A DNA stretch of 64,000 bases from Chondrosia reniformis (Eukaryota; Porifera; Demospongiae; Chondrillida; Chondrillidae), in assembly GCA_947172415.1 (NCBI GenBank), contig OX359189.1:10120501-10184500 (forward strand), read 5' to 3'. The translations under genes were made by a program, and so were the position numbers. The notes under the pieces were generated by a model. It was not told the DNA's origin. It saw only the letters and a list, made by a program, of their open reading frames with translations, and did no database searches. This document shows positions 3,482-64,000 of this stretch, piece after piece; positions within the stretch are counted from its first letter, which is position 1, and each line of letters begins with the position of its first letter.

Positions 3482-6648
<3,167 letters not shown>

Positions 6649-7110: not shown

Positions 7111-9613
7111 TTAGTTTAAAAATGTCTCATAAGTAATGTGCTCAGTGTCAGCCATCTTGTTGCCTTGGTAACCTTTGTTCTCAATTACTTCAGAAGGCAC
7201 AGCATAAGCAGGATTACACAGCATATCAATTTGTTTCATCTCAATCTCTTCATATGAAACATGCTGTGAATTGCAATCGGTAGGAACATCTAAAAGTATA
7301 AAATGTACTTCTTTATAGGAAGACAATTATAGCTATAATGTCATTGAGCCTCATTGCTACGTATAGTAACTATTAGATTTCAAAATTTCGAGCATTAACA
7401 GGAAAATGTATAATAATAACAATAACAGAATGTTTATGTTTATACACTTAAGTAAATTTCTCATTATCACTAATCACTATACTCACTCACTCACTCTCAT
7501 TAGTGTTACATGTACAGCTGATGAAGAACATTCTTATTGTTATTATTACTAATTTTCCTGCTGTTAATCCTCAAAAGTTCACATAACCCTAACTGATTAT
7601 ATATAATCATATCATATACGTACTAACCACTTTTCTTCTTGTGATAGTAAAATACAATAATCAGTATCTTTAAGATGAGGAGGAGAATTACTACAATCAC
7701 TCCTACAATAGCTCCAATGATAGCTAGTGTTGTATCTTCAGACACATGATCGGAATTAACTGTATACATATACATGTATAATGACCATATACACATATAT
7801 ACGTATACGTAAATAAACTAAAGTCATTAATTTATAATTGAGAACAATGTTCTACTAAACTAACACATAAATATAATAAACTTACATGGTAAATGAGTCA
7901 CACTTAATTACAACTGAAATGGAGTACTCTCCCCAACACTGTTCATAGCACTCACATTAATGTTATAAATCTCTCTAATAGTCAATGTATCTACTAACAT
8001 GACACTGTAAGATCTCAGATGAGCTGAGAGAAAGGTCATGTTGAAACTGAAGTTTCATTCAGAAATCTCCACCTGTCAACATTTTAGGAAAATTTACATA
8101 AACAAAATTTATTCTTTGTAAAATTAATATTCATATTTTTATATATTTTAAACACTCACAGTATAGTTAGTAACATTCTGTCCTCCATCAGTCAGTAGTA
8201 CAACATCCACTGATAGAATAGTCAGTGAGAGTGCTTCAACTGATACACTCTCAATAATAGGAACTACATAACAGACAAATACTCATATACCTCACTATAC
8301 ACTACATGGAACTACATCTCACATACCTGAGTCATTTGTAGTAAAGGTACTGGCTGCTGGAGGACTCACTCCATATTCACTCTCAGCCACTATTTCCACT
8401 CCATATTGAGTGCTGTGTTGAAGGTTAGTCAGTGACAGAGTAGTCACATCTGATGCAGTGAAGGAGAGAGTGACAGTGTTGTTTGTGATGCTGATGGAGT
8501 ACTTGAGTGGTTGATCAGTTCCTCCATTATCGGATGGAGGGCTCCAACTGATAGTAGCTGAGAATGGACTTACATCTTCAAATGTGATATTATGTGAAGC
8601 AGAAGGTGAAGCTATGGAATTATATTAATCGATTAACATTGTTATTTCTGTATCACCTCAATCAACTCACCCAACACATTCAAGCATGTTGCTATGGCAA
8701 CACTTCCTGCTTTATTAGTCACTGTACAAGTGTAGTTTCCACTATCTTCACTTCTCTTCCGAGAAGAGACAGTTAAGATGGATCCATTCACTCCTTCTTT
8801 GATGTTCACTCCATCTCTCTCAAACACATAACTACTAGGTGGAGGGTTGGCAGCTGATGGAGTACATTTGAATGTGAATACTTCTGTAAAAACAACATTC
8901 TACACTTTAGAGTGTACAACAAATTCTGGGACATCTATCAAAATATAAGAAAATATATTGTATTACTTTTAAGTTATACATATTAGCCTGTATTCAAGTT
9001 TATATATATTACTTCACTTATAATACCTTATTATAGCAAAACATATTCATAATATTCTGCAGTAACTCACACCATACAGATATTACAGGAAAGGGTTCTG
9101 GCTGATCATGATCCACTGATTCTGAGCCATCACTAGCAGCACAATGTACAGTAGCTCCATTCCAAACTCTGTTTATGTTAGACAAAGTGAGATGAGAATG
9201 GTAGTCACTACCAACTGTTGCCATGGTACCATCTGATAGGGTCTTGTTAGAGGTAATGGTTGTCTCTGTACTGCCATTGTTCAAGTACCACTTTGCATAC
9301 AGTCTCCCGGATGTACTATTTGCTGCACAAGTAAACGTGAGATTGCCTCCTTCCAATGTGGTTACATTGCCTCTCGGATAGTCAAGAAAACTGACCTGAC
9401 CTTAGTAACAGAGAAATAAGCTTAGACATTAGCTGAAAGGTGTGCAGAATATTGTGAATAAGTTATGCTATAATTAAGGTATTATAAGTGAAGTAATATA
9501 TAAACTTGAATACATTTATACCTGGTTGCTGAAGGGGTAAATAATAATAACAATAACAATAACAATAACAATTATAGGCCTATAGCGTGTGTATACGTAT
9601 CATCGTGTATATA

Positions 9614-9673
9614 GAAGGATGTTCCTTCTATAACAATCTCGTTTGTGATGGGTGGAGTGATGGATGGAGGAAC
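9614..9673 (-). pseudogene. Remnant of an Ig2 exon
   Basis: The first roughly 60 bp of an Ig2 exon (encoding PPSITPPITNEIVIEGTSF) are recognisable, then the sequence runs into unrelated DNA. It sits in the first intron of receptor C, where intact paralogues have a full 291-nt Ig2 exon. Confidence 0.75.
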
Positions 9674-14636: not shown

Positions 14637-16523
14637 ATGATTTGTCTGTACGTCGTAATCTTTCTTTTTGGATCATTTCGCAATAATCTGTGTGAAAGTA
14701 AGTCATATCGCAACGTTTGGACATACACCACCACCTTCTAGACATGCGATGATACACGCGCTAGGGCCTTTCAGCTAATACAAGTTAAATTTCTCTGTTA
14801 TAAAGGTCAGGCCAGTTTTCTTTACTATCCGAGTGACAATGTAGCCACATTGGAAGGAGGCAGTCTCACGTTTACTTGTGTAGCAGTAAATATAACATCC
14901 AATGGAACTAGACTGCATGTAAAGTGGTACTTGAACATTAGCAGTACAGAGACAAGCATTACCACTACCTCTAACAAGACCCTATCAGATGGTACCATGA
15001 CAACATTTGGAGGTGAATACCGTTCTCCTCTCACTTTGTCTAACATAACTAGAGTTTGGAATGGAGCTACTGTACATTGTGCTGCTAATGCAGGCTCAGA
15101 ATCAGTGGATCAGGATCAGCCAGAACCCTTTCCTGTAATATCTGTGTTGTGTGAGTTACTGCAGAATATTGTGTATAAGTTATGCTACAATTATAGTTGA
15201 AGTAATATATCAACTTGAATATAGGTTAATATATATAACATTTGTATAGACTCACTTGCAGTATAAAGTTATATAGATCATGTGTGTTTGTTTGTTATAA
15301 CATCCGAAATGCTCTAATGTTAGTAGTTTTATTGTGCATGGCAGTGATAATTGGTGCCTAATTAAACTTTTTGGTGGCTAAAAGTATGTAATTATATATA
15401 AGCTGTATAATTAATATTGATGTGTGTTCATATATAGTTCCTCCATCCATCACTCCACCCATCACAAACGAGACTGCTATAGAAGGAACATCCTTCACTA
15501 CTTCTCTAACTATAACTGGTAATCCATTTCCAGTGAGTAGTGATATTGTTATAACTAAAGATGGAGTTACTGTACAAGATGGCAGGATTACTGTTAATAT
15601 TGGATCTGGTAATGGAACATCTAACTTTACAATAGATAATGTTAATCGTACTGACAGTGGATCTTACACAATAAATGTGACTACTACAGTAAATGTGACT
15701 ACTACAGCAGGAAGTGATTCAGCTGTTGTCAACTTGGATGTGTACTGTGAGTTAGTATTCTTTGTATTCTATATTAAAAGTATACAATACATTTTCTTAT
15801 ATTTTGCTAGATGTCCCAGAATTTGCTGTACACTCTAAAGTGCAGAATGTTGTTTTTACAGAAGTATTCACATTCAACTGTACTCCATCAGCTGCCAACC
15901 CTCCACCTAGTAGTTATGTGTTTGAGAGAGATGGAGTGAACATCACAGAAGGAGTGATTGGATCCATCTTAACTGTCTCTTCTCTGAAGAGAAGTGAAGA
16001 TAGTGGAAACTACACTTGTATGGTGACTAATAAAGCAGGGAGTGTTACCATAGCAACATACTTGAATGTGTTAGGTGAGTTTACTGAGGTGATGCAGAAA
16101 TAACAATGTTAATCGATTAATATAATTCCATCTCATTTACCATGTAAGTTTATTAATGTGTTAATTTGGTAGATCGTTCTTCTCAATTAAATATTAATGA
16201 CTTTATTTTATAGATGGTCATTATACATGTATATGTATACAGCTAATTCCAATCATGTGTCTGAAGATACAACACTAACTATCATTGGAGCTATTGTAGG
16301 AGTGATTGTAGTAATTCTCCTCCTCATCTTAATGATACTGATTATTGTACTTTGTTACCTCCGGAGGAGGAAGAATGGTTAGTGCAACTTCCATTGCAAT
16401 CTGATATTGTTATATAATTAGAATATTGAGTATATGACATCTTTACACATGCAACATCTTTTCATACACAGAATTGAAAAAGGAGTAAGTAGAATAAAGC
16501 TAATGAAGAAATGAGAAAAGAAT

Positions 16524-16566
<43 letters not shown>

Positions 16567-17627
16567 TGATTAAATAAGCTTGCCTTTAAACCTTTATAGG
16601 AATTTGGTTTACTTTCCCAACTCTTTAAAAGTGCATCATCAGCAGTGGCAGTGAACATTCATACATACAGATTCACACAAACAAGCTTCTCTCAATATTC
16701 ACTCTCACAGAACTACTCTCTTTTAACCCTTCAGTAATGATGATTTCACAACTGAAAGCAAGCAGCAGCCGATAGAGTCAATGTATGCAGTATCAATGTA
16801 CGCTGATGTGATACGTGATAGAAAGTCACTCATTATACTCTTACAGAACTATTCTCTTTTAACCCTTCAGTAATGATGATGTTCATTTCACAACTGAAAG
16901 CAAGCAGCAGCCGATAGAGTCAATGTATGCAGTATCAATGTACGCTGATGTGATACGTGACAGAAAGTCCGACACAACCAGAGAGGTGAACAGTTGCATT
17001 ACGAGTAGTCATAGCAACTGAATGTGTTCTTCATACATACGTACACTTCAAATTCATACAGTATTTTCAAAATATATAATACTTGTGAATGATGTCTTTA
17101 TAATTATTATTATGTATATAACAAAAAACTATTTATTTTTATTGTTATTACTTATCTTATATTATTATACAAATTATGGAAATGGAATACACAATTATGT
17201 TTCTAAGTTTACAAATAATCACGGTGTCTCATAAGTATAGTATATAGCCTTAGTATTGTAGTTCAGTGAATGTGTGCATATATATACGTAACCACATGTT
17301 CATTAGTAGATACCTATATACTGCATGTAGGTGGAGGTACTGTACATCTCATATTCACCATGATATTATATATAATGAAATTGCCTGAAGTGGATTTCTC
17401 CCATTCTTTGTACTTTCCTTTATTGTGTCCTCAGTTATCTAATTATATGTTATCTAAGTAGCAGCTTACACACTTTCACACTAGTACTGTATACATATAT
17501 ATATTTGTACATTTAGGAAATATTGAGTGCAGATTTGAAATTTCCAGAAGAAGATCAAAGAAGAAGAAAGCCTCCGGTAGAGATTCAACCAGTTATATAC
17601 ACTAAAGTACAAAAGGTCAAAAAATAA
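14637..17627 (+). CDS. Receptor D: three-Ig receptor without FN3, modified ITIM tail
   Basis: Exons: 14637-14697 (signal peptide), 14806-15150 (V-like Ig), 15438-15746 (Ig2 with an 18-nt in-frame duplication giving NVTTTVNVTTTAG), 15811-16074 (Ig3), 16243-16377 (TM, then LRRRK), 16472-16484 (13-nt microexon), 16871-16985, 17517-17627. The sum is 1353 nt, 450 aa. Both FN3 domains are gone: the intron before FN3-1 is joined to the end of FN3-2 (CCATCTCATTTACC near 16125). A truncated extra copy of the tail exon lies at 16735-16800. The tail reads SMYAVSMYADV, then EILSADL, where the second motif's tyrosine is replaced by serine, then VIYTKV. The ligand is unknown; an inhibitory role is inferred. 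Confidence 0.75.
16528..16563. repeat. (GA)n microsatellite in the tail intron of D
   Basis: About 18 GA units lie at the position equivalent to the arrays in B and L. Confidence 0.9.
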
Positions 17628-26690: not shown

Positions 26691-29458
26691 ATGAAAATGG
26701 ATCCAAAATTAATTAGTATCTTGATATGGCTGACAGGTAAATTATGTCTTACAACATAGTCCATGCACTATTAGAACGTCTGATAATCCAAACCAGCAGG
26801 TGTTCAAAGTCAGGAGATCAACCCAAATGGATCGACAAGTGTCCTAGAAGGTGATACGATATCGTTTAACTGTACTAGCGATGGATCGATGCAGCCCAAC
26901 ATCGCACTCAAATTAAATGGAGACGTTATTTTACAGGATATTGTAGAGTTCACTCGTCTACCTGACGGAGTTAACTACAGGTTCGGCCCAGTTACTAGGG
27001 ATCACGATGGAGGGAGCTTGAAATGTCGATTTTTATTGCTACCAGAAGACAGTCAATATTCTTCAGAGATAATTCTTAATGTTATCTGTGAGTTAGTTTT
27101 ACATGTAAATACAGATAAATATACAATGTTGACAGAATTGTATAAACTTTGACAATCCGTGTTTTTGATATGTATAAAATAGTTCCTCCATCCATCACTC
27201 CAAACATCACAAACAAGACTGCTATAGAAGGAACATCCTTCACTACTTCTCTAACTATAACTGGTAATCCATTTCCAGTGAGTAGTAATATTGTTATAAC
27301 TAAAGATGGAGTTACTGTACAAGATGGCAGGATTACTGTTAATATTGGATCTAGTAATGGAGCATCTAGCTTTACAATAGAAAATGTTAATCATACTAAC
27401 AGTGGATCTTACACAGTAAATGTGACTACAACAGCAGGAAGTGATACAGCTGTTGTCAACTTGGATGTGTACTGTGAGTGAGGATGCATTATTTCTCATA
27501 CACGTACAACAGCAGTTTTGAGTTTAAATAGGTATATACGTACATAAGTATGTATATATTTATATGAAGATCTAGAATTGTTATAGAGCAAACAATTTCT
27601 ATATATAAATACAGTAGATTTGCATATTTTACTTAATCAATTTCAAATTTAGATCTTTCAGAGTATTTGCATCCTTTTATAATACAATATGTTATTGAAC
27701 AAGGGAACACATTCACATTCAACTGTACTCCATCAGCTGCCAACCCTCCACCTAGTAGTTATGTGTTTGAGAGAGATGGAGTGGACATCACAGAAGGAGT
27801 GAGTGGATCCATCTTAACTGTCTCTTCTCTGAAGAGGGATGAAGATAGTGGAAACTACACTTGTACAGTGATTAATGAAGCAGGAAGTGTTACCATAGCA
27901 ACATGTTTGAATGTGTTAGGTGAGTTTATCTATATCTTCATGATCAGCTCATTATCTGTTTAACTGTGAAATATACAGCTCCTCCGACTGTTCCGAGACA
28001 ACTGCTGTCACTAGTCAATGGTCCATTCAGTGTCACTCTAAGTTGGGAGGTACCATCTGATGATGGAGGAACTAGTCAACCTCTCTCCTACACTGTCAGA
28101 GTGATAAATGACACTGTCAACTTGTCCTTCAGTACAACTTCAACTCAACTGAACGTAACTATGGATGATGGAATATGGCACAGTTCAATGTATAGTGTAA
28201 GAGTAGTAGCTGAGAATGAATATGGAGTGAGTCCTCCAGCAGCCAGTACCTTTACTACACCTGTCTCAGGTATGTGAGATGTAGTTCCATGTAGTGTATA
28301 GTGAGGTATATGAATATTTGTCTGTTATGTAGTTCCTATTATTGAGAGTGTATCAGTTGAAGCACTCTCTCTGACTGTTCTATCAGTGGATGTTGTACTA
28401 CTGACTGACGGAGGACAGAATGTGGATAATTATATTGTGAGTTGTGAAATATATACATGTATGTACGTGTATATATGTTATAAAAGTCTATACACATAAT
28501 ATCTCAGATCCTCAATGCATTATTGAAGTTATAGCTGCAGCTGTTTGTGTTATATGTAGTTTTAATGTGTGCACTTTTATTTATTTATAGGTTAACATAA
28601 TTGGAAATCGATACAGTTTCTTGTTGACAATTGCTGCTGCTAATACAACCTCATACAATATTGATGTAAAAGAATTAAAGGAGGGAGAGATTTATACATT
28701 TTGTATAAGTGCTACAAACAATATTGGAAGGAGTAATCAAATTTATACAGGCATAATAGTCCCAAGTGAGTATTATATATAAATAAACATGTGCAGTTCA
28801 TGTATGTCTTTAATAATCAAATAATTTTATTTACCCCTGCATGTATAATCATAATTAGAAGTATATGCCAAATGTGAATGTTGATATAATTATAGCATCT
28901 TTAATATACGTATTTAGTGATTATGAAGAGGTGTTGAGTGTAATCGCAGCGACTGGAATAACACAATGAACGGTTCAATTAATTTTCAGGATGTTTTGAA
29001 TCATTCATTGTGTTACTCCAGTTGCTGCGATTACGCTAAATACCTCTTAATAATCAGTACCCCCGCCTTTACAGTATCTTTAATAAATTTATACAGTATC
29101 AACTACTCTAAAGTCTGAAGTGCCTCCTTCATCTACAATAATAGTAGTATGTGTAGCAGCAATTGGTACATTGACACTTGGAGTTTTAATTATTGTCATA
29201 ATATTAATAGCTTTCAATTACTACAGATTCAAAAGAAAATGTGAGTCTAATTAAATAATCTCAAGATTTATCATGCTGAACTATATATGTACGTACATGT
29301 CATGTAAATTATACGCGTGTACTTATACACATGCAGGCCCTTTAATAGACCTCTGTTCCAATTGCAAGACAGCTTCTCAATCTGCAAATGTTGATTATGA
29401 ATTAAAAGATGTAGAGATGCATCAGAACCCATCTTATGACATTATTTTAACAACTTAA
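26691..29458 (+). CDS. Receptor I: three-Ig, two-FN3 receptor with NPSY tail
   Basis: Exons: 26691-26736 (signal peptide MKMDPKLISILIWLTG), 26800-27087 (Ig with SFNC ... YRFGPVTRDHDGGSLKCRF), 27183-27473 (cysteine-less Ig2), 27653-27919 (Ig3), 27979-28269 (FN3-1), 28333-28436 and 28591-28765 (FN3-2), 29097-29240 (TM, IIVVCVAAIGTLTLGVLIIV then YYRFKRK), 29337-29458 (tail). The sum is 1728 nt, 575 aa. The tail has VDYELK and QNPSYDII: an NPxY motif overlapping YxxI, as used by PTB domains or endocytic adaptors; there is no strict ITIM. It is convergent with receptor J and divergent from gene G. The copy at 60154-62865 is also intact. Confidence 0.85.
28918..29056. mobile_element. Hairpin MITE in the TM-proximal intron of I
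   Basis: Inverted arms of about 55 bp (TGATTATGAAGAGGTG ... TAATCGCAGC and complement) surround a short loop. The same element, with an internal deletion in the left arm, lies in the same intron of receptor N (about 62338-62462), so it inserted before the duplication. Confidence 0.8.
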
Positions 29459-30019: not shown

Positions 30020-33000
30020 TCACAGAGAAGTGTTAGCAACTTTCACTTCATAGTACTCAACAGCTTGTACACTTGGTATTGTCTGTCTTCTTTCTTCTTT
30101 ACTGTTATCATTTGGAAAAGCTAACTCGGCATATGTAATTATTACTGCCTATATACGTATATAATATTATACAACATTTCACATATTGAAGCATATATAT
30201 TCAGATAGGATAAAACACATGCGCTAGGGCACATAATTCGGGACATAGTTTAGCCAACGTTTCCCTCAGTAATTTATGAGGACAACTGTGATTTCCTTAA
30301 TATTGTATTTTGGATATATACTACTTGGCATCATTGATGTCACTAATATGATTCAGTGAGTAAAATATTAATCCCTTTCCAGGAAAATTTGAAGCTTGTA
30401 TATATTAAATCCTACCAGGAAAATGCTCTCAGGAAAAGTATATACAACAAATTAAATCTAGATCTGTTACTTTACTCACTCTTACATATATGTATGTATT
30501 AGAATGATACTTCGATTCATAAATCATAAAATTTTGAAAACGTTTAATTTTCCTATTGATAAACAATGGGTTGTCTCAAATTATATAGAAACTGTAAAAG
30601 TGATTTTTAGCTTTAATAAGTATACACTGAATTAATTAACCTTTCTATCAGTGGTGTTGCTCTGCAATGTTTGGCTCACTTCACCTCTTCCTTCATATAT
30701 TAGAGTTTCAGCATACATTGATTCCACTATTTCAGTATTGTAATTAGTTACATTCCTAAATTGGAAGGTATGTTGATTACTTACGTATGTATTTAATCGA
30801 CTTCAATTTGATTTTATCTATATAAATTAAATGCTGCATGCAGTATATACAGTGCAAGTTACAATATACTAAGGTAATATAATAACGGTATATGTAGCTA
30901 CTGAGTTTATATAAGTTATAATAATATTATTGGCATAAGATAACTTGCTTTAACCATTCCTTTATATATACGCATGCTGTGACAGTCACTAGAGCAGACT
31001 TACTTTGCCTTTGAATTCTCCTCTACATGTAATATATATAACAATATATATAATATATTGTATCTACGTATACACCTACATGTACACCTATACTCATGAT
31101 CATATCCCCATTATTAAGTTTGATGCTTAGAGAATGCATGTACGTATATAGTAGCAAATACACATGTATCTGTATATATATATAGGTATAACTAGCAAAA
31201 TGCATTTAACTCCTTGATGCATATTATAATTAACTATTATATATAGGAAATGACAAAATTTGTAAAATACTGAATGTAATTAAAAGTAAAATACCATTTG
31301 CTGTAGTTATATAACAATCACTAAAATATACTGTAAAACGTTTCTATATGTGAATGCAAACAATTAAATTGATATATATTATTGTTTCAGAGCCCATATG
31401 TTTAGTTCTTTAACATATATATACATAAATTAACTCACTTGATTTTGATTCTTTCCTTCTCAATCGGAAAAATAGAGTGAAAAATGTGACAAAAATTACT
31501 GGAATAATTAAAGAAGCAGATCCTATAACACCTCCAATTATGGCTAACATCAAGTTTTCTGAAGATATGAATAGAGACAAATATATGAACATTTCTATAA
31601 TGACATATGTAGGCAAACCTGATTCTTTATTTTCAAAACTAGCTGCAAGGAAATAAAGTTGTCAATGTTCATAACATGCAAAATGTTTAATTTAATGATT
31701 TACTTACATGATATAGTAAAATTGGAAGAAAATGCATTACTGTCTCCAACTTCGTTTGTAGCAGTTACATTTATGTTATAAATTGCTTCTTTAGCTAAAC
31801 TAGACAATACTAAATGGGATACATTAGTACTAGTCTTGCTCTGATTCATGTTCTTCTCTTTTGATGTTATTAGTACCTATATACATATAATGTCTTGATC
31901 ATATATGTATTATAATATAATACATATATGATCAAGACAATTTGAAATAGACAACAAATGTACATATGTAGAGAGTATAGACAGAATTCTAAGAAAAATA
32001 TATTAACATTCCTGCAGTCTATATATATAACTCTTTTCTCATGTTCAAGTATATTATCACATAATTAAGTAATTATAAATATTATAACTGATTATTTAAA
32101 ATTGTAACTTGCATATGCAATTGCTTATATATTATATGTACATATTCAATACAAAGATTGATAGAATGCCTTCTACACAAACTTGTATTTGTGCAAAACA
32201 ATTACTAAATTATTTCAGGATGTTTCGGTCCATGCATATAGACCTTAATTATCAGCTTAATGCTATGGCACTACAATGTCTATATAGCTTTAAAGTTATC
32301 TTTGGAAAGATTTTCTCAGGAACCCAAATGGTGAAACATTGCAAAATTGATCAATTATTAAATTGATAAAATTATTTAGCATGTCAAATATATCCGTGAT
32401 TTATACGTAGTCTGCTTTTGCAACGAAACACGAAAACTGTTTTTAATCGTGCACAGTATAGAGTATAGGTAGAAGAACATGTAACTTGTTATATATAGAG
32501 TTTATAATTCCAGGGAATACATATATAAACTAACTTATATATATTACTCACAGTATAGTTAGTAACATTCCGTCCTCCGTCAGTCAGTAGTACAACATCC
32601 ACTTGCACTGATAGAACAGTCAGAGAGAGTGCTTCAACTGATACACTCTCAATAATAGGAACTACATAACAGACAAATATTCATATACCTCACTATACAC
32701 TATACATGGAACTACATCACACATACCTGAGTCAGGCGTAGTAAAGGTACTGGCTGCTGGAGGACTCACTCCATATTCATTCTCAGCTACTACTCTTACA
32801 CTATACATTGAACTGTGCCATATTCCATCATCCTTAGTTAAGTTCAATTGAGTTGAAGTTGTACTGAAGGACAAGTTGACAGTGTCATTTGTCACTCTGA
32901 CAGTGTCATTTGTCACTCTGACAGTGTAGGAGAGAGGTTGACTAGTTCCTCCATCATCAGATGATACCTCCCAACTTAGAGTGACACTGAATGGACCATT

Positions 33001-34325
33001 GACTAGTGACAGCAGTTGTCTCGGAACAGTCGGAGGAGCTGTATATTTCACAGTTAAACAGATAATGAGCTGATCATGAAGATATAGATAAACTCACCTA
33101 ACACATTCAAACATGTTGCTATGGTAACACTTCCTGCTTCATTAATCACTGTACAAGTGTAGTTTCCACTATCTTCATCCCTCTTCAGAGAAGAGACAGT
33201 TAAGATGGATCCACTCACTCCTTCTGTGATGTCCACTCCATCTCTCTCAAACACATAACTACTAGGTGGAGGGTTGGCAGCTGATGGAGTACAGTTGAAT
33301 GTGAATGTGTTCCCTTGTTCAATAACATATTGTATTATAAAAGGATGCAAATACTCTGAAAGATCTAAATTTGAAATTGATTAAGTAAAATATGCAAATC
33401 TACTGTATTTATATATAGAAATTGTTTGCTCTATAACAATTCTAGATCTTCATATAAATATATATATACTTATGTACGTATATACCTATTTAAACTCAAA
33501 ACTGCTGTTGTACGTGTATGAGAAATAATGCATCCTCACTCACAGTACACATCCAAGTTGACAACAGCTGTATCACTTCCTGCTGTTGTAGTCACATTTA
33601 CTGTGTAAGATCCACTGTTAGTACGATTAACATTTTCTATTGTAAAGCTAGATGCTCCATTACTAGATCCAATATTAACAGTAATCCTGCCATCTTGTAC
33701 AGTAACTCCATCTTTAGTTATAACAATATTACTACTCACTGGAAATGGATTACCAGTTATAGTTAGAGAAGTAGTGAAGGATGTTCCTTCTATAGCAGTC
33801 TTGTTTGTGATGTTTAGAGTGATGGATGGAGGAACTATTTTATACATATCAAAAACACGGATTGTCAAAGTTTATACAATTCTGTCAACATTGTATATTT
33901 ATCTGTATTTACATGTAAAACTAACTCACAGATAACATTAAGAATTATCTCTGAAGAATATTGACTGTCTTCTGGTAGCAATAAAAATCGACATTTCAAG
34001 CTCCCTCCATCGTGATCCCTAGTAACTGGGCCGAACCTGTAGTTAACTCCGTCAGGTAGACGAGTGAACTCTACAATATCCTGTAAAATATCTTCTCCAT
34101 TTAATTTGAGTACGATGCTGGGCTGCATCGATCCATCGCTAGTACAGTTAAACGATATCGTATCACCTTCTAGGACACTTGTCGATCCATTTGGGTTGAT
34201 CTCCTGACTTTGAACACCTGCTGGTTTGGATTATCAGAAGTTCTAATAGTGCATGGATATAGTGTAAGACATAATTTACCTGTCAGCCATATCAAGATAC
34301 TAATTAATTTTGGATCCATTTTCAT
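30020..34325 (-). CDS. Receptor J: three-Ig, two-FN3 receptor with two ITIM motifs
   Basis: Exons in order: 34280-34325 (signal peptide), 33930-34217 (Ig), 33544-33834 (Ig2), 33098-33364 (Ig3), 32727-33038 (FN3-1, 21-nt duplication giving RVTNDTVRVTNDTV), 32552-32661 and 31708-31876 (FN3-2), 31619-31642 (8-codon linker), 31439-31558 (TM, then FRLRRK), 31004-31022 (19-nt microexon), 30685-30755, 30020-30144. The sum is 1842 nt, 613 aa. The tail has ESMYAET, then ITYAEL and VEYYEV, both fitting the ITIM consensus. Its 5' half is a near-identical inverted copy of receptor I, while its 3' half is homologous to the B/D/L tail but strongly diverged. The microexon and the donor GTTTGC after the linker exon are the least certain parts. 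Confidence 0.75.
31891..31939. repeat. 49-bp perfect palindrome in a J intron
   Basis: The arm TGTCTTGATCATATATGTAT and its complement are separated by a few AT bases, in the intron between the two FN3-2 exons. It could extrude as a cruciform, or be a minimal inverted-repeat element. Confidence 0.9.
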
Positions 34326-37143: not shown

Positions 37144-40098
37144 TCATGGTGTCTCATAAGTATAATGTGCAGTGTCAGCCATTTTGTTGCTCTCAATTAG
37201 TTCAGATGGCACAGCATAAGCAGGATTACACAGTATATCAATTTGTTTCATCTCAATCTCTTCATATGAAACATGCTGTGAATTGCAATCAGTAGGAACA
37301 TCTAAAAAATAAAATTTAGTTCTTTATAGGAAGACAATTATAGCTATAATGTCATTGAGCTCATTGCTACGTATAGTAACTGTTAGATTCCAAATTTTGA
37401 ATTATGAACAGGAAAATTAATAACAATACAGAATATTTATTTATTCACTTAAGTAAGTAAATTTCTCATGATCACTAATCACTATACTCACTCACTCACT
37501 CTCATTATGTACAGCTGTTGAAGAACATTCTGTATTGTTATTATTATTATTATTACTAATTTTCCTGCTGTTAATTCTCCAAAGTTCACAATCAAATGTA
37601 TAGCTGATTATATATCATCATATCATATACGTACGTATATATATAATACTAACCACTTTTCTTCTTGTGATAGTAATATACAATGATCAGTATGATAGAG
37701 ATGAGTAGGATGAGTATGAGAATCACTCCTACAATAGCTCCAATGATAGCTAGTGTTGTATCTTCAGACACATGATCGGAATTAGCTGTATACAAATGAA
37801 TATACACAAATATATATATAGACCATCTTAACATAAAGTAAATATTTTAATTGTGTCAAATGTTTTACTAAACTAGCACAATAACTAACTTAAAACAATA
37901 AACTTACAAATGTTCTACTAAATTAATTAATATTATACGTAGGAACTTACATGGTAAATGAGTCACACTTAATTCCAACTGAAATGGAGTACTCTCCCCA
38001 ACACTGTTCATAGCACTCACATTAATGTTATAAGTCTCTCCAATAGTTAATATGTCTACTAACATGACACTGTAAGATCTCAGATGAGCTGAAAGAAAGG
38101 TCATGTTGAAACTGAAGTTTCCTCCAGAGATCTCCACCTGTCAACATTTTAAGGAACATTTACATCAACAAAATTTATTCTTCGTAAAATTAATATTCAT
38201 TGCCTACGTACTGTAATTATTCAAACACTCACAGTATAGTTAGCAACATTCTGTCCTCCATCAGTCAGTAGTACAACATCTACTGATAGAATAGTCAGTG
38301 AGAGTGCTTCAACTGATACACTCTCAACAATAGGAACTACATAACAGACAAATACTCATATACTTCACTATACACTACATGGAACTACATCTCACATACC
38401 TGAGTCAGGTGTAGTAAAGGTACTGGCTGCTGGAGGACTCACTCCATATTCATTCTCACCTACTATTTCCACTCCATATTGAGTGCTGTGTTGAAGGTTA
38501 GTCAGTGACAGAGTAGTCACATCTGATGTAGTGAAGGAGAGAGTGACAGTGTTGTTTGTGATGGTAATGGAGTACTTGAGTGGTTGATCAGTTCCTCCAT
38601 TATCGGATGGTGGGCTCCAACTGATATTAGCTGAGAATGGTCTTACATCTTCAAATGTGATATTATGTGGAGCAGAAGGTGAAGCTATGGAATTATATTA
38701 ATCGATTAACATTGTTATTTCTGCATCACCTCAATCAACTCACCCAAAATGTTTAGGCATGTTGCTATGGTAACACTTCCTGCTTCATTAGTCACCATAC
38801 AAGTGTAGTTTCCACTATCTTCACTTCTCTTCAGAGAAGAGACAGTTAAGATGGATCCACTCACTCCTTCTGTGATGTCCACTCCATCTCTCTCAAACAC
38901 ATAACTACTAGGTGGAGGATTGGCAGTTGATGGAGTACAGTTGAATGTGAATACTTCTGTAAAAACAACATTCTGCACTTTAGAGTGTACAGCAAATTCT
39001 GGGACATCTATCAAAAAGGGAAAATGTATTGGATACTTTTAATATAGAATACAAAGAATACTAACTCACAGTACACATCCATGTTGACAACAGCTGTATC
39101 ACTTCCTGCTGTAGTAGTCACATTTACTGCGTAAGATCCACTGTCAGTACGAACAACATTTTGTATTGTAAAGCTAGATGTTCCATTACCAGATCCAATA
39201 TTAACAGTAATCCTGCCATCTTGTACACTAACTCCATCTTTAGTTATAACAATATTACTACTCACTGGAAATGGATTACCAGTTATAGTCAGAGGAGTAG
39301 TGAAGGATGTTCCTTCTATAGCAGTCTTGTTTGTGATGTTTGGAGTGATGGATGGTGGAACTATATGTGAACACACTTCAATATTGATTATACAGCGCTA
39401 CATAGCAAAATATTTAGGCACCATTATCATTACCATGCACAATTAAGCTACATATACATATGTATATGTTAAGAACCTATATATGCATATAGTAAACTAT
39501 GATTCTATATATATATATATGCAGTATCTATATACCTATATTAACCTGTACTCAACCTATTTTAAGTTTATATACACTACTTATAGCATAACTTATTCTG
39601 CAGTAACTCACACCACACTGATATTACAGGGAAGGGTTTGGGTTGATCTTCTAATGCTGATTCTGGCTGATCCTGATCCACTGATTCTGAGCCTGCATTA
39701 GCAGCACAATGTACAGTAGCTCCATTCCAAACTCTGTTTATGTTAGACAAAATGAGAGGAGAATGGTAGTCACTACTAACTGTTGTCATGGTACCATCTG
39801 ATAGGGTCTTGTTAGTGGTAATGCTTGTCTCTGTACTGCCATCACTTAAGTACCAAAATGCTATTAATCTCTCTGAGCTGTCATGTGCTACACAAGTAAA
39901 CGTGAGACTTCCTCCTTTCAATGTGGTTACATTCTCTTTTGGGTACTCAGAAAAGTTTGGCGCGGCTGCACGGGCAGTGTTAATGATATATTTATACGAT
40001 CGCACATAACTAGAATATGGGAATATAATTGTACACTGTCACATACCTGCGCCAACCTGTCCAATTAATGCCAGAAGGGTAATATACCATACAATCAT
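37144..40098 (-). CDS. Receptor H: three-Ig, two-FN3 receptor with NPAY/YEEI tail
   Basis: Exons in order: 40047-40098 (signal peptide MIVWYITLLALIGQVGA), 39612-39965 (V-like Ig: LKGGSLTFTC ... FWYLSDG ... VWNGATVHC), 39070-39360 (cysteine-less Ig2), 38744-39007 (Ig3), 38400-38684 (FN3-1), 38233-38336 and 37951-38137 (FN3-2), 37654-37785 (TM, IIGAIVGVILILILLISI then YYHKKK), 37144-37301 (tail). The sum is 1827 nt, 608 aa. The tail holds VSYEEI (ITIM-like), CNPAYAV (NPxY) and HYTYETP at the end. It is the intact counterpart of pseudogene C and probably of receptor A. An 8-residue insertion near the end of the V-like Ig (ESALEDQP) is an internal duplication. Confidence 0.85.
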
Positions 40099-41351: not shown

Positions 41352-41453
41352 CTTTTAATATATATTCAAACCAATTAACTAACTTAGTTAGCATTGAATA
41401 CACTATTACATGTACGACTATACGTAAGTATACTTCTATATAGAAAAACTTAC

Positions 41454-43019: not shown

Positions 43020-43102
43020 TAGTCTCGTGCCCAGCCCCACTTCCGAAATAATGGCTGCCGCCTGCGTCCATTATTTCGGAAGTGGGGCTGGGCACGAGAC
43101 TA
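43020..43102. mobile_element. 83-bp perfect hairpin element with 9-bp target duplication
   Basis: Two perfect 35-bp arms (TAGTCTCGTGCCCAGCCCCA ...) flank a 13-bp loop. The 9-bp direct repeat ATTCAGGAA borders it (43011-43019, 43103-43111). A second member is at 55325-55390. Confidence 0.9.
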
Positions 43103-43312: not shown

Positions 43313-46156
43313 ATGATTTCGCAGTACACAATCCTCTATATAGGATTAATCGGCATTTGTTCTTGTGACAGTAAGTTGTATTGATATGTAGATATATAGA
43401 AACTTCAAAGATATCTTATCTTGGCCATAGTGGACTGTGGACATGCATAATATTTTCAGATAGCGATTATCATTATATAACATCTTTTCCAATTTTATGT
43501 ACATTTTTGCATGCCACCACTACTACTTCATTTTGGTATAGATATGGTCAATTTTTCTGATTATCCAATGGAGGATAAAACCATATTGGAAGGAGACAGT
43601 CTCACGTTTACTTGTGAAACAACTAGAATATCTAATGAAGAGAGACTGTCTGTAATTTGGTACTTAAACTTAACACTTATTGCCAGTGACAAGACCCTAT
43701 CAGATGGTACCATGGCAACAGTTGGTAGTGACTACCGTTCTCCTCTCACTTTGTCTAACATAAACAGAGTTTGGAATGGAGCTACTGTACATTGTGCTGC
43801 TAATCCTAGCACACCAGTAAATCAGATGAAACCCTATCCTGTAATATCAGTGTGGTGTGAGTTAAACATATCAAAATATAATACATGATCAAATACGTAT
43901 AAGTTGACTAAGAATACACTTTGTGCACAAAATTTAGAATTCAGATTACTGTCAAACAACAATTGTCCTGCTTAATAATGATCCATTGTCCTTAGAACCA
44001 TAAATTGCCTTGGGACATGGACATGAATTTACAGTTGATTTGGTTACAAATAGCAAACAAATCATTCATGAATCCTACAAGCAAGGGTGTTGTATGATTC
44101 ATGCATAGCTAATGCTTCACTGTGTAACATCCCTTTCTTGTTTCTGTACTTTTTGTGCCATCCCTACATCTTCACTATTTTTGTAGAAAATTTTTAATAT
44201 TTATTATATTATAGAATATATATATATGTAAAAGTATGTAATTATAAGCATGTATAATCAATATTGAAGTGTGTTCATATATAGTTCCTCCATCCATCAC
44301 TCCACCCATCACAAACGAGACTGCTATAGAAGGAACATCCTTTACTGCTCCTCTAACTATAACTGGTGATCCATTTCCAGTGAGTAGTAATATTGTTATA
44401 ACTAGAGATGGAGTTACTGTACAAGATGGCAGGATTACTGTTAATATTGGATCTGGTAATGGAGCATCTAACTTTACAATGCAAAATGTTAATCGTACTG
44501 ACAGTGGATCTTACACAGTAAATGTGACTACTACAGCAGGAAGTGATACAGTAGTTGTCAACTTGGATGTGTACTGTGAGTTAGTATTCTTTGTATTCTA
44601 TATTAAAAGTATACAATGCATTTTCCAATATTGATAGATGTCCCTGAATTTGCTGTACACTCTAAAGTGCAAAATGTTGTTTTTACAGAAGTATTCACAT
44701 TCAACTGTACTCCATCAGCTGCCAACCCTCCACCTAGTAGTTATGTGTTTGAGAGTGATGGAGTGGACATCACAGAAGGAGTGAGTGGATCCATTTTAAC
44801 TGTCTCTTCTCTGAAAAGAAGTGAAGATAGTGGAAACTACACTTGTATGGTGACTAATGAAGCAGGGAGTGTTACCATAGCAACATGCTTGAATGTGTTA
44901 GGTGAGTTGATTGAGGTGATGCAGAAATAGCAATGTTAATCAATTAATAATTAATATAATTCCATAGCTTCACCTTCTGCTCCACATAATATCACATTTG
45001 AAGATGTAAGTCCATTCTCAGCTAATATCAGTTGGAGCCCACCATCTGATAATGGTGGAACTGATCAACCACTCAAGTACTCCATCAACATCACAAACAA
45101 CACTGTCACTCTCTCCTTCACTACATCAAATGTGACTACTCTGTCACTGACTAACCTTCAACACAGCACTCGATATGGAGTGGAAATAGTAGCTGAGAAT
45201 GAATACGGAGTGAGTCCTCCAGCAGCCAGTACCTTTACTACACCTGACTCAGGTATGTGAGATGTAGTTCCATGTAGTGTATAGTGAGGTATATGAGTAT
45301 TTGTCTGTTATGTAGTTCCTATTATTGAGAGTGTATCAGTTGAAGCACTCTCACTGACTATTCTATCAGTAGATGTTGTACTACTGACTGATGGAGGACA
45401 GAATGTTACTAACTATACTGTGAGTACAGTATGTAGACAATGAATGTGAATTTCAGTTAGATATGTAGTATATATATATAAAAATATGAATATTAATTTT
45501 ACAAAGAATAAATTTTGTTTATATAAATTTTCCTAAAATGTTGACAGGTGGAGATTGCTGGAGGAAACTTCAGATTCAACATGACCTTTCTTTCAGCTCA
45601 TCTGAGATCTTACAGTGTCATGTTAGTAGATATATTAACTATTGGAGAGACTTATAACATTAATGTGAGTGCTATGAACAGTGTTGGGGAGAGTACTCCA
45701 TTTCAGTTGGAATTAAGTGTGACTCATTTACCATGTAAGTTAATTGTTTTCAGTTAATTTAGTAGAACATTCTTCTCAATTGAAAATTAGTCATGATATT
45801 AATTTAGATAAGATAGTCATTTTATAGATGGTCATTATACATGTATATGTATACAGCTAATTCCGATCATGTGTCTGAAGATTCAACATTAGCTATCATT
45901 GGAGCTTTTGTAGGAGTGATTGTAGTAATTCTCCTTCTCATCTTAATGATACTGATTATTGTACTTTGTTACCTCCGGAGGAGGAAGAATGGTTAGTGCA
46001 ACTTCCATTGCAATCTTATATTGTTATACAATTAGAATATTGATTCTATGACATCTTTACACTTGCAACATCTTTTCATACACAGAATTGAAAAAGGAGT
46101 AAGTACAATAAATAAAGCTAATGAAGAAATGAGAAAAGAATTATCAGAGAGAGAGT

Positions 46157-46215
<59 letters not shown>

Positions 46216-47711
46216 TGATTAAATAAACTTGCCTTCAAACCTATATAGGAATTTGGTTTACTTTCCCAACTCCTTAAAAGTGCATCATCAGCAGTGGTAG
46301 TGAACATTCATACATACAGATTCACACAAACAAGCTTCTCTCAATATTCACTCTTACAGAATTATTCTCTTTTAACCCTTCAGTAATGATGATGTTCATT
46401 TCACAACTGAAAGCGAGCAGAAGCCGATAGAGTCAGTAGTTATTCATGATCGGCCAACTGAATCAAATGGAAACTCAAACAGTGACAACCAACTCAATGA
46501 GGTGAAGAGAACTAAACCAGTTGAGTCAATGTACGCTGATGTGATACGTGATAGAAAGTCCAACACAACCAGAGAGGTGAACGATTGCATTATGAGTAGT
46601 CATAGCAACTGAATGTGTTCTATATGAGGTGATCTGTACCAGTTCGGTCTATCAAATAGACTGTACGTATATACTAATGTACTCACTCCTAATTGTGCTA
46701 ATGTTAGTACATATAATGTAGCTAATACTGCATGTTAATGGGATGTCATAAATTTCATTATACTGTATCCATACCAAATAACTAACTCTATTACTAGTAC
46801 ATTCTACTCACTTAAGTGGTATGTCAGTCACATTCTTAATTATCTATATCCTTGAGACTCTCTCTTCAAGTACTTGTAGTAGATAGCCATTACTTGTGCA
46901 TGTCCCAGTTGAGATTGTCATCCTCTCCAACAGTCTTTCTTCTTTCAATACTTTTCTTCCATATAAGGTATACAGAGACGAAGATACACTACACATGTGA
47001 GCTCTTCAGTCTCCTCATTATATATAACAAGTAGTGTAGAGGGTATATCCCCTGTATGGAGTGGACTAACTTACTTTATGTTTAATATATTTCACTTCAT
47101 AATGGGGTAAACCCTGTCAGCTAGTTTAATAATTACACATGTCAACACAATTTCAAGAATTTACAAATTGTTGTACTGGATACAGTGGAATGTATACAAA
47201 CACACCTCCTCCTGATCAGATGTGCACTATATCCCTTAGTATAGTAGTTCAGTGAATATGTGTATATATATTAGCTTAACACAAGTTCACTAGTAATTAC
47301 TAGGTGGATGTACTGTACATCTGATATTCAGCAAGATATCATTATTAATGAAATTGCCTAAAGTAGATTTCTCAATACTTCAATTATAGTCTTAAGGGTT
47401 GCATTGCATCATTCAGTATCTTGCTTGAATAAAATTCTCTGTATCTTTATTGTGCAATATCACTTGTTATCTCTCCTCACTTATCTATGTATGTTATCTA
47501 ATTAGATGTTCACTTATCTCATATTATCTAAGTGGTAGGGTGGTTTACACACTTTCACACTAGTACTGTATATGTATTGTACATATATTTGTACATTTAG
47601 GGGATATTGTATGCAGATTTGAAATTTCCAGAAGAAGATCAAAGAAGAAGAAAGCCTCCGGTAGAGATTCAACCAATTATATACACTGAAGTACAAAAGG
47701 TCAAAAAATAG
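43313..47711 (+). CDS. Receptor L: full-length three-Ig, two-FN3 receptor with three ITIM-like motifs
   Basis: Exons: 43313-43370 (signal peptide MISQYTILYIGLIGICSCD), 43542-43856 (V-like Ig), 44285-44575 (Ig2), 44638-44901 (Ig3), 44968-45252 (FN3-1), 45316-45419 and 45548-45734 (FN3-2), 45857-45991 (TM, GAFVGVIVVILLLILMIL then YLRRRK), 46086-46098 (13-nt microexon), 46384-46576, 47601-47711. The sum is 1956 nt, 651 aa. The tail carries VESMYADV, GILYADL and PIIYTEV. All three match the ITIM consensus, so recruitment of SH2-domain phosphatases is the expected role by analogy with vertebrate inhibitory receptors. The penultimate exon is 31 codons longer than in B. It contains every module of the family and is the best reference for it. 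Retention at 46576 gives a short tail stopping at about 46611. Confidence 0.85.
46145..46212. repeat. (GA)n microsatellite in the tail intron of L
   Basis: A GA array, once interrupted by TTATC, lies at the same position as the arrays in B and D. Confidence 0.9.
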
Positions 47712-48794: not shown

Positions 48795-49216
48795 CAGTGC
48801 AAGTTACAAATTTAAAGAGATCCAAGTGACCCCTAGGATAATCAGTATTTAATAGTACAAGACTTTAGTCACACTAGTACTGTTGCAGGCTTTGAAATCC
48901 TCAACTACTGCATAGAGAGTAGTAGTTGATACAGATCATCCAATTGCAAGGTAGAACACATGGCTTACCAATTACCTTTTCACACCTTAGTATAGACTGA
49001 AGATGATGCATCTGCATGCCATATATCAACAAAGGCTCCAGTATTAAAGGGGTCTCAGCTAATAACCACAGCAGATTTGATTTGCCTTGTGAGGGAGCTA
49101 AGAACACCGACGGTTGGTTGCATGCATTGGCATAATCAACAGGGTTAGAGACCATTTTGTAACTTGTACACAAGGGACATCATATACGTATATAAAGGCC
49201 TTGGCATTAACATTTA

Positions 49217-49283
49217 CAACAAGGAGTTCGAGTTTAAAAAACTCGTGGGGCGCCAGGCGCCCCTAAGTAATCGAACTACTTGG
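49217..49283. repeat. Structured repeat, copy 1 (AGTTCGAGTT hairpin)
   Basis: GAGTTCGAGTTTAAAAAACTCG is followed by a small GC hairpin (GGGGCGCCAGGCGCCCC) and then AATCGAACTACTTGG, so the ends pair. The same design occurs at 50751-50814. Similarity between the two continues loosely to CGAACGTCCGCCATTT at about 49495. Confidence 0.6.
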
Positions 49284-60153: not shown

Positions 60154-62865
60154 ATGAAAATGGATCCAAAATTAATTAGTATCTTGATATGGCTGACAGG
60201 TAAATTATGTCTTACTACTCCATGCACTATTAGAACGTCTGATAATCCAAACCAGCAGGTGTTCAAAGTCAGGAGATCGACCCAAATGGATCGAAAAGTG
60301 TCCTAGAAGGTGATACGATATCGTTTAACTGTACTAGCGATGGATCGATGCAGCCCAACATCGCACTCCAATTAAATGGAGAAGATATTCCTTCTAGTCA
60401 GAATATTGTAGAGTTCACTCCTTTACCTGACGGAGTTAACTACAGGTTCGGACCAGTTACTAGGGATCACGATGGAGGGAGCTTGAAATGTCGATTTTTA
60501 TTGCTACCAGAAGACAGTCAATATTCTTCAGCGATAATTCTTAATGTTATCTGTGAGTTAGTTGTACCTGTAAATACAGATATATATATATATAGGACAT
60601 GTTGATAATTATATAAGAATATATATACAATGTTGAGAGAATTGAATTTTTTTGGCAATCCGTGTTTTTGATATGTATAAAATAGTTCCTCCATCTATCA
60701 CTCCAAATATCACAAACGAGATTGTTATAGAAGGAACATCCTTCACTTCTCCTCTAACTGTAACTGGTGATCCATTTCCAGTAAGTAGTAATATTATTAT
60801 AACTAAAGATGGAGTTATTGTACAAGATGGCAGGATTACTGTTAATATTGGATCTGGTAATGGAGCATCTAGCTTTACAATAGAAAATGTTAATCGTACT
60901 GACAGTGGATCTTACACAGTAAATGTGACTACTACAGCAGGAAGTGATACAGCTGTTGTCAACTTGGATGTGTACTGTGAGTTGTAATATCAAATTTGAC
61001 ATAGCTATTAATGTTTTCCACCCTACAGTTCTTCCAGAGTTTGATGTAGTGCCTCCTAAAGTTCAAAGTTTGAGTGATTCTACCACCTTCATATTTAGCT
61101 GTACTCCATCTGAGAACAGCTACCCAAAAGTTTATATGTATACATTTCAATTAAATGGATCTGCTATTTCTGAGGGAGATGGAGTGGACATCACAGAAGG
61201 AGTGAGTGGATCCATCTTAACTGTCTCTTCTCTGAAGAGAAGTGAAGATAGTGGAAACTACACTTGTATGGTGACTAATGAAGCAGGATGTGTTACCATA
61301 GCAACATACTTGAATGTGTTAGGTGAGTTTATGTATATCTTCATGATCAGCTCATTATCTGTTTAACTGTGAAATATACAGCTCCTCCGACTGTTCCAAG
61401 ACAACTGATGTTACTAGTCAGTGGTCCATTCATGATCAGTGTCACTCTAAGTTGGGAGGTACCATCTGATGATGGAGGAACTAGTCAACCTCTCTCCTAC
61501 ACTGTCAGAGTGATAAATGACACTGTCAACTTGTCCTTCAGTACAACATCAACTCAATTGAATTTAGCTATGGATGATGGAATATGGCACAGTTCAATGT
61601 ATAGTGTAAGAGTAATAGCTGAGAATGAATATGGAGTGAGTCCTCCAGCAGCCAGTACCTTTACTACACCTGACTCAGGTATGTGAGATGTAGTTCCATG
61701 TAGTTCCATGTAGTATGTGAGATGCAGTTCCATGTAGTTCCATGTAGTGTATAGTGAGGTATATGAATATTTGTCTGTTATGTAGTTCCTATTATTGAGA
61801 GTGTATCAGTTGAAGCACTCTCACTGACTATTCTATCAGTGGATGTTGTACTACTGACTGACGGAGGACAGGATGTTGATAATTATAATGTGAGTTGTGA
61901 AATACATACGTATATACATGTATGTACGTATTATGCTATATAAGTTTATACACATAATATCTCAGATCCTCAATGCATTATTGAAGCTGCCGCTGTTTGT
62001 GTTATAGTTATAATGTATATATACGCTTTTATTTATGTATAGGTTAAAATAATTGGAAATCAATACAGTTTCTCGTTGACCATTGCTCCTGTTCATATGC
62101 ATACGACTTCATACAATATTGATGTAAAAGAATTAAAGGAGGGAGATATTTATACATTTTGTATAATCGCTACAAACAATATTGGAAGGAGTAATCAAAT
62201 TTGCATAATAGTCCCAAGTGAGTATTATAGATAAATAAACATGTGCAGAGCATTTAATAATCAATTAATTTTATTTACCCCTGCATGTATCATCATTATT
62301 AGAAGTATTATGTAAGGCAAATGTGAATGTTGATATATATTAAGAGGTATTGAGTGTAATCACACAATGAACGATTCAATTAATTTTCAGGACGTTTTGA
62401 ATTGTTCATCGATCATTGTGTTACTCCAATCACTGCGATTACGCTAAATACCTCTTAATCATGTATGCAACAATGAGCCTTTACGGTATCTTTAATTTAT
62501 ACAGTATCAACTACTCTAAAGTCTGAAGTGCCTCCTTCCTCTACAGTAATAGTAGTATGTGTAGCAGCAGGAATTGTTACATTGACACTTGGAGTTTTAA
62601 TTATTGTCATAATATTAATAGCTTTCAATTACTACAGATTCAAAAGAAAATGTGAGTCTAATTAAATAATCTCAAGATTTATCATGCTGAATTATATATG
62701 TACATGTCTTGTAAATTATACGCGTGTACTTATACACATGCAGGCCCTTTAATAGACCTCTGTTCCAATTGCAAGACAGCTTCTCAATCTGTGAATGTTG
62801 ATTATGAATTAAAAGATGTAGAGATGCATCAGAACCCATCTTATGACATTATTTTAACAACTTAA
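60154..62865 (+). CDS. Receptor N: duplicate of receptor I with a chimeric Ig3
   Basis: Exons: 60154-60199, 60259-60552, 60686-60976, 61029-61322, 61382-61678, 61786-61889, 62043-62217, 62505-62651, 62744-62865. The sum is 1770 nt, 589 aa. Domains are as in receptor I: signal peptide, three Ig, two FN3, TM (GIVTLTLGVLIIVIILI), tail with VDYELK and QNPSYDII. The first half of Ig3 (DVVPPKVQSLSDSTTFIFSC) is unlike all other Ig3 copies, while from GDGVDITEG on it is identical to them, so the exon is a recombinant. The intron after FN3-1 is enlarged to 107 bp by an internal duplication. It is divergent from the gene G duplicate and convergent with a J-like gene. Confidence 0.85.
62338..62462. mobile_element. 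Hairpin MITE in receptor N intron
   Basis: It is the orthologous copy of the element at 28918-29056, with part of the left arm deleted. Confidence 0.7.
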
Positions 62866-63566: not shown

Positions 63567-63691
63567 TCACAGAGAAGTGTTAGCAACTTTCACTTCATAG
63601 TACTCAACAGCTTGTATACTTGGTATTGCCTGTCTTCCTTCTTCTTTACTGTTATCATTTGGAAAAGCTAACTCGGCATATGTAATTATTA
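63567..63691 (-). CDS. Last exon of a second J-like receptor (rest beyond the window)
   Basis: After an acceptor the frame reads VIITYAELAFPNDNSKEE, then QAVEYYEVKVANTSL and a stop: two ITIM motifs (ITYAEL, VEYYEV), differing from J by only a few conservative residues. The upstream exons must lie to the right of 64000. It is convergent with receptor N, exactly as J is with I. Confidence 0.75.
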
Positions 63692-64000
63692 CTGCCTATA
63701 TACGTATATAATAATACAACATTTCACATATTGAAGAATATATATTCAGATAGGGTAAAACACATGCAGCTAGGGCACATAATTCGGTTTAGCCAACATT
63801 TCCTCAGTAATTTATGAGGACAACTGTTTAATGTTGTATTTTTGTCTATCTACTACTTGGCATCATTGATGTTACTAATATGATTCAGTGAGTAAAGTAT
63901 AACCCCCTTCCAGGAAAATTTGAAGTTTGTATACGTATATATTTGAACTTAAATCCTACCAGGAAAATGCTCTCAGGAGAAGTATGTATATACAACAAAT

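Follow-up and report, generated by a model that had tools for sequence, protein, structure and literature searches.

Receptor genes with tandem ITIM-like tails, and their neighbours, in the sponge Chondrosia reniformis

Does a sponge carry receptors whose tails resemble those of vertebrate inhibitory receptors? The question is raised by a 64,000-nucleotide stretch of the Chondrosia reniformis genome, hereafter the window (contig OX359189.1, here C1, positions 10120501-10184500), and in particular by the gene at 43313-47711 of this window, named receptor L. An original prediction, made from the letters of this DNA, had read here a family of receptors with immunoglobulin (Ig) and fibronectin type III (FN3) domains and several immunoreceptor tyrosine-based inhibitory motifs (ITIMs), in an apparently early-branching animal. 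The host is indeed a sponge, and the domains of L were matched in Pfam. We searched the whole assembly, i.e. 117,379,552 bases in 15 contigs, C1 being 10,409,357 bases long; the genome note gives 117.37 Mb, with 14 chromosomal scaffolds, the longest of them 10.41 Mb, besides the mitochondrial genome, and according to it RNA data are also available (PMC12181767). Positions are those of the window, unless a contig is named.

Receptor L and the conservation of its tail

The gene model built from the sequence has 11 exons with AG/GT intron borders on the forward strand and gives a protein of 651 aa, with a signal peptide, three Ig domains, two FN3 domains, a single transmembrane helix, a basic stop-transfer and a tail. 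L is thereby predicted to be a single-pass type I protein with extracellular Ig domains. Its exons are the following.

43313..43370 (+): exon 1, start codon and signal peptide; ATG, GT donor, phase 1 end
43542..43856 (+): exon 2, outermost Ig domain (D1); Pfam ig E 3.4e-4, 21.3 bits for a cut-off of 21.8
44285..44575 (+): exon 3, Ig domain D2; Pfam I-set E 5.3e-9
44638..44901 (+): exon 4, Ig domain D3; Pfam Ig_3 E 1.8e-8
44968..45252 (+): exon 5, FN3 domain 1; Pfam fn3 E 1.1e-12
45316..45419 (+): exon 6, first half of FN3 domain 2
45548..45734 (+): exon 7, second half of FN3 domain 2; both halves, Pfam fn3 E 2.5e-4, 21.6 bits for a cut-off of 25
45857..45991 (+): exon 8, transmembrane helix (top hydropathy peak, 3.81) and CYLRRRKN stop-transfer
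46086..46098 (+): microexon of 13 nt, consensus borders, preserves the frame into the tail
46384..46576 (+): tail exon A, motif SMYADV
47601..47711 (+): tail exon B, motifs ILYADL and IIYTEV (tyrosine spacing 24 residues), ending in the stop codon

When scanned alone, D1 and FN3 domain 2 are slightly below the Pfam cut-offs. The microexon was absent from the original prediction; it is needed because a direct join of the transmembrane exon to tail exon A breaks the frame. The Pfam scan gave no kinase family match in the L protein, and a weak match to SIT, an SHP2-interacting adaptor (E 0.0076, below cut-off), was given no weight. No match was returned by an Rfam scan at gathering thresholds or by a tRNA scan.

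On splicing of this rebuilt model, the three tail motifs that had been announced were recovered (SMYADV, ILYADL and IIYTEV), and the original observation is confirmed. The two tail exons have AG/GT borders and are predicted to join in phase 0, and the motifs lie C-terminal to the single helix and its basic stop-transfer, as originally described. After the juxtamembrane CYLRRR, the tail has only three tyrosines, and all three fit [SIVL]xYxx[LVI]; this was reached in 19 of 200,000 shuffles of the 110-residue tail (P = 9.5e-5), which makes chance an unlikely cause. The ITIM consensus is given as S/I/V/LxYxxI/V/L in the part of the survey available to us (PMC8631942). Three such motifs had been claimed also for a second gene, receptor B. 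SMYADV (5068-5166) and ILYADL/VIYTEV (from 6553) are indeed there, but the frame stops directly after YTEV and the end residues of L are absent.

We then quantified how far such tails are conserved within the genome, which was searched with three tail queries. This yielded 21 copies of exon B, which is a minimum, as only the best candidates are scored by the search tool. The strict pattern [IVL]xYxx[LVI] was found at 39 of the 42 sites, that is at 18 of 21 first sites and at all 21 second sites; in the three exceptions, the tyrosine is replaced by serine (one copy and its duplicate) or the frame is broken (one copy). Eight copies, picked to cover different kinds, were aligned (26-61% identity, one pair 97%). 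Among the internal columns, only four never vary: Y, A and L in site 1, and Y in site 2. Position -2 is aliphatic (I/V/L) at 16/16 sites, +1 is Ala at 8/8 first sites, and +3 is occupied by L in the first sites and by V/I in the second. The two tyrosines, counted in these eight tails, are separated by 23-26 residues. According to the accessible part of the same survey, the spacing of tandem ITIM tyrosines is 25 in PD-1 and BTLA and similar in many others, and Ala at pY+1 occurs in SIRPalpha, Siglec6, Siglec9, CD300LF and VSTM4 (PMC8631942).

Conservation of these motifs extends beyond the 10.1-Mb cluster, since they are kept in tails at C1:8.51-8.97 Mb, more than 1 Mb away and only 26-45% identical. 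One of these tails (C1:8.946 Mb) is preceded by an FN3 domain and a transmembrane segment, so that the exon-B module seems to be common to more than one receptor family. A related tail exon in at least one further family had escaped the original prediction. At locus L024, a putative Ig frame had no Pfam match, and this family is therefore described as FN3 plus helix only. Conservation is lower in exon A than in exon B, and in some genes exon A forms tandem arrays of 2 to 7 units.

Small exon-A arrays with a period of about 142 bp were seen at C1:9701058-9701867 and C1:9694321-9694845, with six and four extra units respectively, each carrying SMYAVSMYADV or a close variant. Read by eye, the units have phase-2 borders on both sides, and the number of tail tyrosines could be variable at these loci. 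In the full exon A at C1:9700813, the GT donor present in L seems lost. Directly 5' of L, at 43020-43102, a perfect 35-bp inverted repeat with a 13-nt loop is probably a small mobile element.

Neighbouring receptors, ectodomain variation and signalling enzymes

Genes with an L-like tail (hereafter type I) are mostly found beside a second receptor type with a different tail (type II), a feature that the original prediction had missed. The neighbour of L is such a gene.

37144..40098 (-): head-to-head partner of L, type II; 608 aa, 9 exons, all introns GT-AG

Its frame is open, and the exon plan of the ectodomain and helix is that of L, with 79% identity over 585 aligned positions. The tail carries VSYEEI, NPAYAVP and YTYETP. 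L and its partner are thus adjacent genes with the same ectodomain and different tails, as in paired receptors. Going 5' from each of the 14 type I transmembrane exons, one first meets a type II element of the opposite strand in 12 cases, by hand count in the fetched stretches, full gene models on both sides having been built for the pair of L only. Relatives of the type II tail were found at C1:9.89-10.02 Mb, at C1:5.84 Mb and on contigs C4, C9 and C10, with a YE site and NP[SA]YxxPS kept.

The partner (YYYHKKK) was also considered as a receptor kinase, and this was not borne out: its last exon is a short tyrosine tail, after which, as read in the sequence, the frame ends without a kinase domain. 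Between L and its partner, an orphan C-terminal tyrosine kinase exon was seen at 41216-41356 (-) (Pfam PF07714, E 1.2e-10), beside an Ig-like frame at about 41450-41740 (-) and with relatives on C5, C8 and C12. In a region of clustered receptor tyrosine kinase (RTK) genes, at C4:7366800-7372600, YEEHEIKN...NPSYDVPS, a stretch related to the type II tail, comes after a transmembrane helix in one gene copy; no kinase exon was seen downstream of this helix in the stretch fetched. A derivation of type II tails from RTK juxtamembrane regions is only suggested.

Among paralogues of this one assembly, divergence is highest in D1 (exon 2 in L), with a mean pairwise dN of 0.195, compared to 0.031-0.063 in the other exons. 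The dN/dS ratio was 1.11 for D1 (12 copies), 1.24 for D2 (24), 0.39 for D3 (18), 0.60 for FN3-1 (14), 0.42 for FN3-2b (14) and 0.87 for the transmembrane exon (12), in a plain pairwise estimate that ranks exons and is no proof of positive selection. Copies below length or E-value limits, frames bearing stops and the 10.048-10.067 Mb copy of the duplicated block were dropped beforehand. Positive selection is not claimed, because the exons recombine. Judged from these sequences, the divergence of D1 would fit a recognition domain at the tip of the receptor.

A phosphatase gene of SHP1/SHP2 type is present in the same genome. Coinciding SH2 and phosphatase matches revealed two tandem genes at C3:9.105-9.117 Mb, and in the reading frames each has SH2, SH2 and PTP domains with both halves of the catalytic HC/SAGIGRTG signature. 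The joined exon pieces of the upstream copy, the only one compared, matched PTPN11 (SHP-2) structures with E 1.4e-114, compared to 8e-98 for PTPN6. On C9, SH2 and kinase domains occur together in single frames of about 400 aa, presumably what is expected of Src/Csk-like kinases. Also on this contig, at C9:1355380-1360658, two open frames of 395 and 355 aa have three SH2 matches each, as multi-SH2 proteins.

Possible function and comparison with known systems

Taken together, these results make it rather probable, in our view, that the locus encodes a paired-receptor complex of the sponge, in which the ITIM-like type I member recruits a phosphatase of the SHP type. The complex might work as follows. 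Type I and type II receptors would use the variable D1 to bind ligands that are identical or related, and their tails would be phosphorylated by an SH2-containing tyrosine kinase. The two phosphotyrosines of exon B, 23-26 residues apart, would jointly engage both SH2 domains of the SHP-2-like phosphatase. The phosphatase, once opened, would dephosphorylate the type II partner or nearby receptor tyrosine kinases, in the same contact zone, and so set a response threshold. Such receptors may serve in the recognition of self and non-self, or of microbes. A bolder version, less likely than not, is a recognition complex in which paired receptors with one ectodomain plan oppose a tandem-ITIM/SHP-2 tail to an NPxY/YEEI docking tail, without an immunoreceptor tyrosine-based activation motif (ITAM) or a charged-helix adaptor.

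Several observations weigh against the paired-receptor reading. As regards the tails, all comparisons are between paralogues of one genome, and the search for exon B favours copies that keep the motifs, because the queries carry them. Three of the 21 copies (C1:8816924, 8830092 and 8505328) had E-values of 0.18-0.29 and were taken in after inspection of short stretches, with no gene model, and for 4 of the 14 type I transmembrane exons no exon B was in view in the fetched stretches. The first motif, SMYADV with S at -2, is weaker; exon A of the type III genes described below reads ESMYAET, which fails at +3 and is not an ITIM; and in an exon-A copy on C4 (2,588,436) the first motif is without the residues YAD. 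Motifs of this kind also fit YxxPhi endocytic signals and other SH2 domains. In addition, SHP-2 often promotes signalling, so that SHP binding would not prove inhibition. The inhibitory receptor system that had been proposed is partly supported: Ig/FN3 receptors with conserved tandem ITIM-like motifs and SHP-type phosphatase genes occur in one sponge genome, and phosphorylation of the tails, SHP binding and inhibition would be predictions.

As regards the pairs, two of the 12 are copies within a 19.3-kb block duplicated at 99.6% identity, at least five of the 12 type II partners are fragmentary or have stops, and all domain exons are present on both sides in two pairs only, that of L and C1:10202770/10208640. 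The latter is also the only one, among pairs with D1 on both sides, whose D1 domains are mutually closest (94%). In C1:10056635/10062377 and its duplicate, D1 is closest in one direction only (72%), and the D1 domains of L and its partner are not mutually closest. Shared D1 is therefore not taken as proof of a shared ligand. The highest dN/dS was found in D2, not in D1. Finally, the partner of L is not an ITAM receptor, because its helix LAIIGAIVGVILILILLISIILIIV has no charged residue and its second site is YxxP: the tail has YEEI followed by YAVP, not the ITAM form YxxL/I-x6-12-YxxL/I, and a charged transmembrane residue that could couple it to an ITAM adaptor is absent.

Could these genes instead encode homophilic adhesion receptors of the PECAM-1 type? 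SHP-2 binding would then tune adhesion, junctions or sorting during reaggregation, rather than immune inhibition. The Ig/FN3 ectodomain is in keeping with this, and titin heads the best 60 of 79 matches by sequence to solved structures, among which NCAM2, DSCAM, contactins and receptor-type phosphatases also occur. In the accessible parts of the sources, the PECAM1 ITIM has Thr at pY+1 (PMC8631942), as does the second exon-B site of L, and sponge members of the Ig superfamily (IgSF) are mainly described as adhesive (PMC11999971). However, a duplicated array in which the membrane-distal domain is the most divergent, with tail-swapped neighbours, is more like recognition receptors, and we regard the adhesion alternative as unlikely.

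Two further alternatives concern the motifs themselves. YADL, YADV and YTEV match the YxxPhi form and might be sorting or endocytosis signals instead of SH2 docking sites. YxxPhi signals need no aliphatic residue at -2, no Ala at +1 and no fixed spacing, but the eight aligned tails keep all three, which makes this explanation very unlikely. It could also be argued that the cluster consists largely of decaying tandem duplicates, the tails being conserved only through recent duplication and gene conversion. Numerous fragments and stops, duplicated blocks at 99.6% and 96% identity, the dN/dS of D2 and the altered exon-B copies (Tyr-to-Ser in one and in its duplicate, a broken frame in another) all point that way. 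Yet the frames of L and its partner are fully open, dN/dS is 0.39, 0.60 and 0.42 in D3, FN3-1 and FN3-2b, and the motifs are kept between the 10.1-Mb cluster and the 26-45% identical tails at C1:8.51-8.97 Mb, so that decay appears hardly probable at all.

Compared with vertebrate ITIM receptors, the paired-receptor reading finds close counterparts. SIRPalpha, Siglecs, PECAM-1 and PD-1/BTLA have an Ig ectodomain, as L does, and there too an SHP-2-like phosphatase is encoded in the genome. The ectodomain of L is composed of three Ig and two FN3 domains, its host is a sponge, and the likeness seen is one of motifs and layout. In the vertebrate receptors, tandem sites are spaced by about 25 residues, and several have Ala or Thr at pY+1, as far as given in the accessible part of the survey (PMC8631942). 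Outside this group, the 2025 review, in the part accessible, places ITIM/ITAM signalling in allorecognition from cnidarians to mammals, while the candidate molecules of sponges, cnidarians and ascidians are said to show no conservation (PMC12065747). ITIM-type receptors beyond vertebrates are already known, and "outside vertebrates" is not in itself new, because ITIM families have been reported in Hydractinia and Botryllus.

The Botryllus fester co-receptors (FcoR) carry ITIMs and hemITAMs and are encoded in pairs; clustered receptor genes, Ig domains, ITIM tails and pairing are features common with the sponge cluster, but FcoR are built from one variable-type Ig, one sushi and two C2-type Ig domains, and their pairing is with genes of the fester family (PMC12065747, accessible part). 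In the sponge pair, unlike FcoR, the two partners follow a single ectodomain plan, and in place of a hemITAM the second tail has NPxY/YEEI. The Hydractinia Alr complex is likewise an IgSF allorecognition cluster, with ITIM and ITAM motifs reported on candidate genes (PMC12065747), but with V-set and I-set domains (PMC11999971), whereas L has FN3 (both sources in their accessible parts). Previously described sponge receptors upregulated after grafting share Ig domains with L, according to the part of that report available (PMC2248247); L and its partner differ from them in having no kinase domain. The sponge partner carries no charged transmembrane residue, has tyrosine sites of its own, and is mostly placed head to head, which sets these pairs apart from KIR, LILR and FcR-like receptors. 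Those vertebrate paired receptors have near-identical ectodomains with different tails, in tandem clusters.

No published report of ITIM-type receptors in a sponge was found in the open literature, seen in part, subscription papers and preprints being outside its coverage. As far as this literature goes, such a system in a sponge and the arrangement with shared ectodomain and swapped tail are new. A receptor cluster with ITIM-like tails in a sponge suggests that signalling of this kind could have a very early origin in animals. With its conserved tandem ITIM-like tails, the SHP-2-like genes and the tail-swapped neighbours, it would carry the ITIM/ITAM logic further towards the base of the animal tree, and the cluster would offer a concrete locus for the study of self/non-self recognition in sponges. 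If the proposed recognition complex is real and used in this way, threshold setting by ITIM and SHP would predate the split between sponges and other animals. The original opponent of the ITIM would then be a direct docking tail, perhaps derived from RTKs, rather than an ITAM.

Other genes and elements of the window

The following receptor genes were also found.

3652..6645 (+): receptor B (type I tail), part of the block duplicated at 99.6%; exons for D2 and D3 not seen
7123..9670 (-): type II receptor with stops in D3 and FN3-2, apparently broken; head to head with 14814..17624
14814..17624 (+): type I receptor, tail exon A present twice; exon B reads ILSADL, with Ser in place of the first Tyr
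26787..29458 (+): type II-like receptor, tail VDYELKDVEMHQNPSYDI; converges tail to tail on 30023..34230
30023..34230 (-): type III receptor (span of the exons seen), with ESMYAETL in exon A and ITYAEL plus VEYYEV in exon B
60246..62862 (+): another type II-like receptor (span of the exons seen), converging with the type III exon B at 63570
63570..63695 (-): exon B of a further type III gene, likewise with ITYAEL and VEYYEV; remaining exons beyond the window

At three places on C1, type III ITIM genes converge tail to tail with type II-like genes. The duplicated block spans 1-19335 of the window and C1:10047578-10066898, about 72.9 kb apart, which points to a very recent segmental duplication or else to a haplotype left unpurged; receptor B may therefore not be an independent gene.

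Two similar short elements at 49236-49290 and 50755-50815, seen by eye, have inverted ends (AGTTCGAGTTTAAA...CGAACTACTTGG) and are probably similar to miniature inverted-repeat transposable elements. A weak zf-TRAF match (E 0.0025, below cut-off) at 49703-50636 (+) is followed by a frame with weak coiled-coil-type matches; this is a possible TRAF-like gene fragment, the frame end near VYVWKI presumably resembling the start of a MATH domain. Near-identical frames in opposite orientation, at 48901-49179 (-) and 53735-54001 (+) and at 52408-52668 (+) and 53086-53355 (-), are probably parts of a repeated element.

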